From Rhodamnia argentea (lineage: Eukaryota > Streptophyta > Magnoliopsida > Myrtales > Myrtaceae), in assembly GCF_020921035.1 (NCBI RefSeq), contig NC_063151.1:29208934-29272933 (forward strand): a stretch of DNA of 64,000 nt. Reading direction: 5' to 3'. The notes under the pieces were generated by a model. It made no database searches, was not told the origin of the DNA, and saw only the letters and a list, made by a program, of their open reading frames with translations. The position numbers and the translations under genes are program-made. Of this stretch, positions 47,601 through 53,115 are shown piece by piece. Positions within the stretch are counted from its first letter, which is position 1, and the number at the start of each line of letters is the position of its first letter.

Positions 47601-50250
47601 AATTTCCTAAGGTGGACTGGACTCTTCTTGAGCCGGCTCCGAGCTTCGCTCCAAAATTCCAGACCGTAGGAAGCCACGTATTGATTGTTGCCAAACGACT
47701 GTTCTGTCTTATTCATTGATTGAGTGGTTTCCGTTTGTAATTCGTGGATGTCTTTTCCTTAACTCGTAAGTTTGTGGAAAAGTATTTATTATTCCCTTAG
47801 AAAATTTCGCCAAAATGTATCTTACGTAGCTTGCTCTCTACCATTAATCTTTGAATGGCACTAGCTTTTCGGGAAAATAAGCGATGCTTTGATAATAATG
47901 AAGATACGTATCGATGGTGGCGATTCGCGATCAATAAAAATCGACATGTATCGCGGTTCCCACGCAATAAGCCACTTGAGGAACATGCCGATTGACAACA
48001 CTAGCGGGAAGAAATGCGTTGCTCAATTTTATCGGCTTAGAGAATTCTCATGCGGTTACTTGGGTTTGAATGAACGAAACACGCTTTATCCTATCCAAAG
48101 CTTTTAACGCCTTTGAATGACAACGGGTCTTTTGGTACCTATATAAGCTGATTCAATCTATGTTTCTTACTTCCGACATGATGTCCGTAACAACTCGTGC
48201 GAGAGAGTGAAAAAGATATATACCTACCAACAGAAAGGTCCGCTCCAAGAATCTAAATTTATGGGTGCGAAGAGACAGTACGAATATAGAAACCCCACAG
48301 TCAACGAACGTAAGATAATTCCGGCTTTAAGCTAATCATGGAGAAAGCAATCGTCGATCCGACCCAATAAAATAAAAGAGACCGATTGAAGGGGATCAAG
48401 GGAAGCGAGGCGTGACATCACCAGTTGATGACATGATGTGGCGATTCAATTCAATTCAATTCCATTCTTTTGCAAATTCCATGATAATGATTTTGCTTTG
48501 TTGGACATTGGAGGGGACGGTGGGTGGAAAAGAGTCGCCCCTTTTTTCTTATGGCGAGATTCTCCCACGCGGTCCAACCCCAAAAGAACGTACAAAATAA
48601 GTTACTCATTAGTCATTAGCTCCTCCCACGTGCGGCCTCCACTGATATTCACATTAAGAAAGAACTTAGAGTCATCGGAATCCGAATATTTGCCCACATG
48701 CAGTGCGACAGCGAGATATAATCTTGTATCCTATTAAGATATAGGGGCCAGCAACACAGACCGATTGAATATGAAATCACTTGGAACAGATCGAATAGGT
48801 CGGTTCAGTCGGGTTCCGAAGGATGTCCGATTCAATAAAATTGGAACTGTTGATTTTCGATCCGATTCTTGATTTTAGGAAAAAAGCGAACGGTCCAAAT
48901 TAGATCTATTATTATTTATTTATTTCTTAAAAGTAAATTTAACAATTCACTGGTTGATTTTTTTATTTTTTTTTGAATGCAAACATGACTTTAATTATTA
49001 TATTAATATTAAAATATATGTTCCTTACTTTTACTAATAATTTATCGATTTTATTGAACCACTCAAGAGGTGGGTCAGCCAGTCCACGACCATCTGATCT
49101 GGCTTCTGATTTTCAGGTGAGACCGGACCGATCGAAAAGAGTTCACTCTTAATATAAAATAATGACGCGCGTGCACTCGGAAGTTCCAGATGCGCGTGGG
49201 CAATGCATGGAGATGGACCCCACCTCGCCCCTTGTTATCCAAGCCTAAAAATAGGTGGTTGGAAATAGAGCAGCACCTTCGGAGTATATGCGCCTTCCTT
49301 CAAACAAATAAATCAAGAAATGATGAACTTCCGTACCGTACTATTAACCTTCGACCGGATGATTGATTTTTCTCTTTGCTTTACGAGTGATGCTTTGGAT
49401 TAATTTTCGATCATTCATAGAAGGTTTAGATATAATGTTGTGCAAAATTTTTTTTCAATTCATTGAGACGAGTTATAAAAAAAAAATTATGCAGAATTAC
49501 AGGTGCGTTTATTTCGCGAAAAATGACCGATCTTAAAAGTATTTTCTTAAAAATGATTATTTATATCGCTTATAAAAATGAGCGAGCGAATGATATTATT
49601 ATTGTCCGCGGAAATAGTTAAACCTAAATTATCATCGGAAATGGCGATGCTTTTCATTATCTAAATACTTCAAGCGGTCATATTTAACAATTGGCGATCT
49701 ACTTTCAAAGTATACGCATACCTTATCCATCGAAAATGTATATTTTCCGAATTGCACTTTTTTGATATTTCCCATGTAATTAAAAATTGGGTTTTAACAT
49801 ATTCATTACGTCGCAAGGAGAGTAGTTTCTTCGCAATTCTTCAAATACTAACATATATGAGTTTTTTTTTTTTAAGAAATAGATATGTGAACTTAACACA
49901 GCATGTTTAAATTGGTCAATCGCATTATCGTCATTTGAGGTATGATGAAAATGATAATTCAGTATATAGAAATTCAAGCGCACGTTTGGAGAAAAAGGTT
50001 TAAACGTCACGTGCATGCATCAATCCATAACATAAAATCGCAAAGACAAATCCTCAGACTGAAGGGAGATTAGTTCATCGTTTGTGTAATGTTTTGTCTT
50101 TACGGTTTTATATCGCATGCCGTAATTTTCTTTTAATCTATAAAGTACCCTGGCAAATATTTATTAATTTAATAATAAAAAAAAGGGAGATATTCGCTTA
50201 GGAAAACGGGGAAAATAATCCCCGGCTGTCGGTCCATCCGTACGGTTTCT
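44691..50250. other. Long gene-poor spacer upstream of VTC2
   Basis: I see no gene with support. Open frames of 172 codons (45613-46131, minus) and 214 codons (46391-47035, minus) lack recognisable domains and splice context. About 46200-46800 is distinctly GC-richer than its surroundings and may be the remnant of a gene's first exon. About 48740-49130 resembles a dispersed repeat with GGTTCAGTCGGGTTC-type motifs. Confidence 0.35.
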
Positions 50251-50330
50251 GCGGTGCATCTTCTTCCTCGCGATCCACCAATCGCACTCGCACGAGTAAG
50301 CGAGAGCACGCAGGGACGCACAATACAAAG

Positions 50331-50365
<35 letters not shown>

Positions 50366-50372
50366 CTCTCTC
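50331..50372. repeat. (CT)n tract in VTC2 promoter
   Basis: A long TC/CT run lies upstream of the TATA box. Further CT runs lie at about 50453-50473, just before TATA, and at about 50563-50590 in the expected 5' UTR. Confidence 0.9.
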
Positions 50373-50483
50373 TACAGAGTCACAGTTTCACCAGGTCCAC
50401 TCGAACACAGTACACACAACCTCAACCGCAACCATAACAACCACAGCTACCCCTCTCTCTCTCTCTCTCTCTCCTCATGCCAT

Positions 50484-50491
50484 CTATATAA
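50484..50491 (+). promoter_or_regulatory. TATA box of VTC2
   Basis: CTATATAA lies about 650 nt before the main ATG and about 260 nt before the upstream ORF. Transcription would then begin near 50515 and give a long leader, as expected for this gene family. Confidence 0.5.
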
Positions 50492-50745
50492 CGCCACCTC
50501 CACTTCTCAACCTCGCACCACCACACACAACCAGAGCCTGAAGATATCACCTCGCGGCAATCTCGCTCTCTCTCTCTCTCTCTCTCCCTCCCTCCCTCCG
50601 AACGTAGCCTGGACGGCCTCTCCGTTCCCCGGGCCTCTCCGATCGTCTTCCTCCTCTCCGGCGAGCCTCGATCACCGGCGTAGCAAGGTAGGTAGGCAGG
50701 TAGGTAGGCGGGGGTAATACCCGGGACAGTCAAGTTGCGGACATC

Positions 50746-50946
50746 ACGGCTATACACGGAGCAACGCCGCCTCTACTCATACATGTCCGGGCCGCGCGTG
50801 GCAAGGGTTGTCATTGCTTGATCGTGAACGTCGGCAACCCTTCGCCGCACGGCGGGCGCGGCGCTCTCCCCTCCGAAGGCGGCAGCCCCTCCGATCTCCT
50901 CTTCCTCGCCGGCGGCGGTCCCCTCTCCCCCTCTTCCCTCTACTAA
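50746..50946 (+). CDS. Non-AUG (ACG) upstream ORF of VTC2, ascorbate-sensing type
   Basis: A 66-codon frame runs from ACG at 50746 to TAA at 50944-50946. It has no ATG in frame, and the nearest upstream in-frame stop is TAG at 50701. The encoded C-terminal half includes NVGNPSPHGGRGALPSEGG, then SDLLFLAGGGPLSPSSLY. Plant GGP/VTC2 mRNAs are known to carry a conserved upstream ORF of 60-65 codons starting at a non-canonical codon, often ACG. It represses translation of the main ORF when ascorbate is high. Length, start codon and position about 190 nt before the main start all fit. A second in-frame ACG lies at 50764. It overlaps no other gene. Confidence 0.85.
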   Translation, partial: TAIHGATPPLLIHVRAARGKGCHCLIVNVGNPSPHGGRGALPSEGGSPSDLLFLAGGGPLSPSSLY

Positions 50947-51136
50947 AGCTATTAACATAGAGGTTAAGTTTTTAGGTATTACCTCCGTCCAGTTTCGCTG
51001 TGATTCGTGGGAAACAAGTGTCGAGGGGGGATTAGATCTGTCTGGTTCCAGTTGCTTGAGAATCGCTAGGGTCTGTTTGGGGCTTTTGGTTCATCACCGT
51101 TGGAGAAAGGGACTTAGCTAGAAAGAGTAGGAAAAG

Positions 51137-53115
51137 ATGACGCTCAGGATTAAGAGGGTTCCGACTGTAGTTTCCAACTACCAGAAAGAGGAAGGTGAGG
51201 AGGGTGCTCGCCGCGGCGGGGGTTGCGGCCGGAATTGCCTCAACAAATGCTGCATTGCAGGTAAACTTGAGCAAATTTCCGTTTGGTCATGAGAGCTCCA
51301 GTGTTTCGTGAATTGGGAGTTGGTTGTGCATGTGGGGTCAGCGGATAGAGGTTTTGACTGTCTGGTGTATGGTATGGGCAGGGGCAAAGATCCCTTTGTA
51401 TGCTTTCAAGAGGGCGAACTTTGTTGCTGATGAGAAGGCTCTGATTGTGGGTGAGACTCCGGAACCGCCCGTTGCCTTTCTAGACTCGCTCCTTCTGGGG
51501 GAGGTAAAATTTGTTTAGCTGCATGACAAATTGATGGATCTGGAATGATGGTCATATTTATGCTGTCCTAGTCTTGAATTAGATGAGCTGAACTCGTTTA
51601 CAACTTCACTGTAGTGGGAGGACCGCATGCAGAGGGGCCTATTTCGCTACGACGTAACTGCCTGCGAAACTAAGGTCCCTTACTTAGCTCTCTATTTTAA
51701 TGGATTCGCATCCAACATGCTGTATTTCAAGAACTTTATGGAGATTATGAGTTCCCTCTCAATTAACGTTGTGATTTTGGTGCAGATCATACCTGGTGGG
51801 TATGGATTTATTGCCCAGCTGAACGAGGGTCGCCATCTCAAGAAGAGGCCAACTGAATTCCGTGTCGATAAGGTCCTCCAGCCCTTTGATGGAAGCAAGT
51901 TCAACTTCACTAAAGTTGGGCAGGAAGAGATCCTCTTCCAGTTTGAAGCAAGTGAAGATGGTGAAGTGCAATTCTTCCCAAAAGCTCCAATTGATGCAGA
52001 CAACTCCCCTAGTGTCGTGGCTATAAATGTAAGAATTCCTTTACCTGCACTGAAATCTTTTGTAAATTACTCGAAGTTGCCTGAGCTAGCTTAATGAAAT
52101 ACACAATCATTGTCCCTACAGGTTAGTCCCATTGAATATGGGCATGTGCTGTTGATTCCTCGTGTCCTCGAATGCTTGCCTCAGAGGATTGACCGCGAAA
52201 GCTTCTCTCTTGCACTTTATATGGCTGCAGAAGCTGGGAATCCATACTTCCGTCTTGGTTACAACAGCTTGGGTGCCTTTGCCACCATCAATCATCTTCA
52301 TTTTCAGGTTTATCACCTTAATCTTATCAATTTAGTTTGGATCGAGTTCATTTATGCCACCGCAATGTCTGTATTAATCAGATAAGTGGAATTGTTACAG
52401 GCATACTACTTGGCAGTTCCCTTTCCGATAGAGAAGGCTCCTACCCAGAAATCAACTGCTTTAAAATCTGGAGTTACAATCTTTGAACTTGTCAATTATC
52501 CAGTGAGAGGTCTTGTTTTTGAGGGTGGAGACACCGTGCAAGATTTATCCAATGCAGTTTCTGACTCCTGCATATGCCTCCAAGATAACAACATCCCCTA
52601 CAATGTCCTGATCTCTGATTGTGGGAAGCGAATTTTTCTCTTACCCCAGGTAATCAAATCGGGCCTGCCTTTTCTTCTAGTTACCTTGTTTCATGCCTTT
52701 ATGTTCTTATTTGAAGCTGACCTTGTCTGTGTTGATCTCTTAACAGTGCTACGCCGAGAAGCAAGCTCTAGGGGAAGTGAATCCAGAACTTCTGGACACC
52801 CAGGTGAACCCAGCTGTCTGGGAAATCAGTGGGCATATTGTCCTGAAGAGGAAGGAGGACTTTGAGGAGGCATCCGAAGAAAATGCTTGGCGCCTTCTTG
52901 CAGAGGTTTCTCTTTCCGAGGAGAGATTCCAAGAAGTGAATGCTCTGATATTTGAAGCCATTGCATCTGTCGGAAATGGTGGGCAGGCCATCACTCCTAG
53001 CACGACCGACAAGCCCGATGTGGAACCTCAAGCACTGGAAGAGGCTGATGTCATGAAGCAGAGCTCCCACCCTGCAATGGTGGCTGGATCATCAGGGTGC
53101 CTGGTCCTGCAGTGA
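51137..53115 (+). CDS. VTC2: GDP-L-galactose phosphorylase (ascorbate synthesis)
   Basis: The enzyme converts GDP-L-galactose and phosphate to L-galactose-1-phosphate and GDP, the first committed and main control step of the plant ascorbate (Smirnoff-Wheeler) pathway. Seven exons join in frame to 450 codons: 51137-51260, 51382-51503, 51615-51674, 51786-52028, 52122-52307, 52401-52649 and 52747-53115. The protein starts MTLRIKRVPTVVSNYQ, has PLYAFKRA and DSLLLGEWEDRMQRGLFRYD, IIPGGYGFIAQLNEGRHLKK, the HIT-like catalytic site NHLHFQAYYLAVPFPIE, LISDCGKRIFLLPQ and a late CYAEKQALGEV block. Exon 7 ends at the TGA at 53113-53115. All junctions are GT-AG. The upstream ORF at 50746 predicts feedback by ascorbate at translation. 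Cytosol and nucleus are the known locations of the family. Confidence 0.96.

Follow-up and report, generated by a model that had tools for sequence, protein, structure and literature searches.

The window, a 64,000-nucleotide stretch of the Rhodamnia argentea genome, contains a gene that we take to encode GDP-L-galactose phosphorylase (GGP/VTC2). Spliced alignment placed its main open reading frame (ORF) at positions 51137 to 53115 (features are given on the + strand), in seven exons (51137-51260, 51382-51503, 51615-51674, 51786-52028, 52122-52307, 52401-52649, and 52747-53115) encoding 450 amino acids. The protein includes KKRP as well as HLHFQ, the latter fitting the HIT superfamily motif H-phi-H-phi-Q. 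Because comparisons of the main ORF with Pfam-A and with PDB sequences gave zero matches, the name GGP rests on these motifs and the exon structure, together with what is known of Arabidopsis VTC2. A TATA-like box (TATATAA, 50485-50491) lies upstream, and transcription is predicted to start at approximately position 50515. GTAGGT repeats with donor-like sites occur at 50688-50706 and could allow alternative splicing of the leader. The HIT motif and KKRP are both given as GGP features in published work (PMC6878703), and seven exons are reported as the commonest structure (73.6%) among the GGP genes of eudicots I (PMC7640755).

The predicted 5' leader of this gene (its extent is likewise a prediction) contains an upstream ORF (uORF) at 50746-50946. 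Translation of this interval gave 66 residues followed by TAA, with zero Met. The frame is bounded upstream by an in-frame stop codon (TAG, 50701-50703), its GC content is 67%, and its end lies 190 bases from the main ATG at 51137. Three possible non-AUG start codons are found near its 5' end, namely ACG at 50746, the directly adjacent ATC at 50743-50745 (a published alternative start), and a second in-frame ACG at 50764-50766. The Met-less frame of 66 codons, the upstream stop, the two ACG codons, and the position in a GGP leader had all been described in a first-pass annotation of this DNA, and each was reproduced here.

A search of the genome (346.7 Mb) revealed two GGP genes in addition to the window gene. 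Copy B (L011; matched span C2:4757718-4759718, - strand) has seven exons and is identical to the window gene at 80% of residues in the aligned codons. Copy C (L012; matched span C8:11288740-11291338, within the locus C8:11285000-11291800, with the main ATG at L012:3738) has five exons, an intact frame, and 66% residue identity to the window gene. Published eudicots II GGP genes have five to six exons (PMC7640755), a range that includes copy C. When the uORF frame was searched against the genome at E values up to 10, two matches were obtained, the window itself and copy B. In the 3.7 kb upstream of copy C, a uORF-like stretch was not found; the best tblastn match to the conserved core described below covered 11 residues (E = 0.014) approximately 2.5 kb from the ATG and was taken as chance. 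If copy C is expressed, it would escape feedback through the uORF, a natural escape; a search of open-licence papers gave nothing on point about a uORF-less GGP paralogue. Relatives were not confirmed in prokaryote genome contigs or viral contigs.

Conservation of the uORF was evaluated by comparing the window gene with one paralogue from the same genome, copy B. The DNA alignment placed two 3-base gaps within the uORF, and the reading frame was kept across both. A chance ORF was ruled out by the persistence of the frame before a second GGP gene. The peptide conservation expected by the first-pass annotation was borne out against this paralogue, with 48 of 65 residues identical in the two-gap DNA alignment and an invariant core of 31 residues (VGNPSPHGGRGALPSEGGSPSDLLFLAGGGP; 50830-50922; 31/31 identical) that is the presumed arrest region. 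That annotation had also singled out a conserved-looking peptide at the end of the frame; its conservation held, and its boundary did not, as the conserved block runs past ...PSEGG to ...LAGGGP. A text search of open-licence papers for GGRGALPSEGG did not find the peptide.

The pattern of substitution in the core argues for purifying selection on the peptide. The 93 nucleotides of the core contain four differences between the two copies, with 4 synonymous and 0 non-synonymous (Fisher P = 0.006). The main ORFs of the same pair have a dS of 1.25. Read in the two alternative frames, these changes would be non-synonymous in 4/4 and 3/4 cases, so coding in another frame of the core was rejected. 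The result for the core is independent of alignment choices. For the whole uORF, dN/dS was 0.69 (P = 0.19) in the two-gap DNA alignment, 0.46 (P = 0.033; 50/63 residues identical) in a hand alignment with five gaps, and 0.755 in a further estimate, and a MAFFT alignment of the peptides (45/66 identical) gave a dN of 0.307 and a dS of 0.367. Because the whole-uORF ratio varies with the alignment, codon-level purifying selection, which the first-pass annotation had named as a supporting sign, was recovered for the core and not firmly for the sequence outside it.

The start codon is most likely ACG 50746, judging from sequence context and conservation. This codon has A at -3 and G at +4, both it and ATC 50743 are in frame and kept in copy B, and the bases across the ATC-ACG pair (GACATCACGGCTATACACGG) are identical at 20 of 20 positions between the two genes. 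Numbered from the ATC, the uORF peptide would have 67 residues in the window gene and 66 in copy B (one fewer from the ACG). Initiation at ACG 50764 or at another near-cognate codon, instead of 50746 or 50743, was also considered; ACG 50764 shares the uORF frame and is flanked by G at -3 and C at +4, and further near-cognate codons occur in that frame. However, copy B has ACT at the 50764 site, whereas the ATC-ACG pair and its flanking 20 bases are identical, and the conserved peptide begins with ITAIHG. A start at 50764 was judged unlikely on account of the ACT in copy B, and initiation at any of these other codons is hardly to be expected. For the same reason, the earlier suggestion that the two ACG codons compete is unsupported: they are not equal rivals.

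These features correspond to those of a known class of plant uORF, in agreement with the first-pass assignment. The founding description of an ACG- or AUC-initiated GGP uORF is reportedly that of Laing et al. in 2015. In wheat, a GGP uORF with an AUC or ACG start is described for all six GGP genes, with lengths of 56 and 47 residues; according to the same source, GGP uORF peptides begin with Ile (rice being the exception) and, in species other than grasses, carry Glu at residue 45 (PMC6878703). The rice GGP uORF is reported to start at ACG and to encode 60 residues (PMC12559526), and ribosome profiling in rice gave a large peak on it (PMC11440899). A length of 60 to 65 residues has been stated for GGP uORFs (PMC10069634), and further descriptions are available (PMC11066804, PMC7640755, and PMC11062462). 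Numbered from the ATC, Ile 1 and Glu 45 are present in both R. argentea copies, with the reservation that the published consensus numbering may include gaps. The R. argentea uORF thus shares with the non-canonical GGP/VTC2 uORF its place in a long leader, the ACG/AUC start, Ile at the first position, Glu 45, and a length of about 60 to 65 residues, and no essential difference was found in a comparison with published text descriptions.

Metabolite-dependent repression of a main ORF through a uORF with a conserved peptide is also described for SAMDC (polyamines) and the S1 bZIP genes (sucrose) (PMC6878703). Those uORFs differ from the GGP uORF in having unrelated sequences, and the query peptides that we used for them begin with Met. 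Elsewhere in the genome, peptide matches identified candidate uORF sequences of the SAMDC type (L013-L015) and the S1 bZIP type (L016-L020).

We conclude, with a probability of about 95%, that 50746-50946 is the conserved non-AUG uORF of GGP/VTC2, which would act as an ascorbate-responsive brake on translation. The uORF is real and conserved here, and its kind is already well described. What was observed here is the frame, its retention in the paralogue, a core that evolves under purifying selection, and the context of the start site. Initiation at ACG, repression, and ascorbate dependence are carried over from published work in other plants, and by analogy we infer that the uORF works the same way in R. 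argentea. Scanning ribosomes would initiate with moderate efficiency at ACG 50746, perhaps at the neighbouring ATC as well, and would translate the 66-residue peptide. When ascorbate is high, the invariant core, the putative arrest region, would detain the ribosome on the uORF; fewer ribosomes would then arrive at the GGP start codon (51137), and less ascorbate would be made. According to a review, ascorbate-dependent stalling is a proposal, for which the peptide is undetected and a role of ascorbate itself is without direct evidence, and the regulatory mechanism of the GGP uORF needs clarification (PMC11066809).

The uORF might instead be removed as a leader intron in at least some transcripts, yielding a uORF-free mRNA. 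Donor-like sequences are found at 50688 (AAG|GTAGGT) and 50700 (CAG|GTAGGT), and acceptor-like sites are found at 50991 and 51050. Nevertheless, purifying selection acts on the core peptide, GTAGGT is absent from the leader of copy B, and the GC content of 67% is unlike that of typical dicot introns. We regard leader splicing of this sort as very improbable.

As a presumed translation brake, the uORF has practical interest. A vitamin C feedback element was located in another plant from sequence alone, and its likely start codon was indicated. Editing of the GGP uORF is an established way to raise ascorbate in Arabidopsis, lettuce, and tomato (PMC6878703 and PMC11066809). In rice, the uORF has likewise been edited to raise ascorbate, and reporter output increased 1.48- and 1.83-fold upon mutation of the uORF (PMC12559526).

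The core also shows little synonymous change. The proportion of synonymous differences was 0.147 in the core (4/27.2 sites) versus 0.609 when the main ORFs of the two genes were compared (180.7/296.8 sites; Fisher P = 3e-6). None of 409 overlapping 31-codon windows of the main ORF had as few changes as the core (minimum, 12). In a simulation that accounted for codon bias and used the C-rich third positions of the core, the P value was 0.0007. Copies of the SAMDC-type and bZIP-type uORFs served as controls: in 18 paralogue pairs from the same genome, synonymous divergence was 0.36 to 0.66, in every pair above that of the GGP core, although these pairs were not age matched to the GGP pair. For the bZIP type, 13 matches corresponded to 12 loci, of which 6 were compared (L016-L021); L022-L027 were left out as weaker matches, some partial or with internal stops. 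All three SAMDC loci were used.

One explanation is that the RNA sequence of the core (a binding site, codon identity, or structure) is conserved in addition to the peptide. The deficit relative to the main ORF, the 409 windows, and the 18 control pairs, as well as the simulation, point in this direction. Set against it, the peptide clearly matters, given that every change in the core is synonymous, and the pattern could also arise from strong codon bias or a short tract of gene conversion. The control pairs are unmatched in age, and the contrast with the pre-core part of the uORF was weak (4/27 versus 9/22 synonymous in the hand alignment; P = 0.04). Compared with synonymous permutations, the folding energy of the two cores was ordinary (z = 0.21 and 0.01). 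A search of 50200-51300 against Rfam at E values up to 1 returned two sub-threshold matches, taken as chance, and a known structured RNA was rejected on that result. Conservation of the RNA sequence in addition to the peptide is possible but somewhat unlikely. A search of open-licence papers gave nothing on point about synonymous constraint in conserved peptide uORFs. If the low synonymous change holds in other plants, recoded mutants that keep the peptide could test whether regulation is through the peptide only.

A short out-of-frame ORF that begins with AUG is nested within the uORF. This mini-ORF (MSGPRVARVVIA; 50783-50821) has 12 codons and ends just before the core. ATG 50783 is the only ATG between the predicted transcription start and the main ATG, and copy B has an ATG at the homologous site (mini-ORF MPAPFDAARVA) that is also the only AUG in its predicted leader. 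This uniqueness depends on the predicted starts, because further ATGs lie upstream of them (one, at 50477, in the window gene and three in copy B). The predicted leader before the ACG is free of ATG over 223 bases in the window gene and 195 in copy B. Depletion of ATG in the predicted leaders was not significant in the window gene (1 versus 3.0 expected; P = 0.17) or in copy B (1 versus 3.8 expected; P = 0.07). The nested AUG may result incidentally from a CAT codon with G as the next base, and two related sequences are too few to show selection for it.

A joint reading would combine a second, nucleotide-level constraint on the core with use of the nested AUG as a by-pass. Any ribosome that failed to initiate at the ACG would translate the 12-codon mini-ORF, stop before the presumed arrest core, and then be able to resume scanning to the main ATG. 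We consider this combination doubtful. A possible hairpin of 10 bp (50803-50842; arms 50803-50812 and 50833-50842), which copy B could form too, arose in 1,842 of 200,000 synonymous draws; it was picked after the fact and is weak evidence. Three CT microsatellite tracts were also seen by eye in the promoter and leader (50334-50590).
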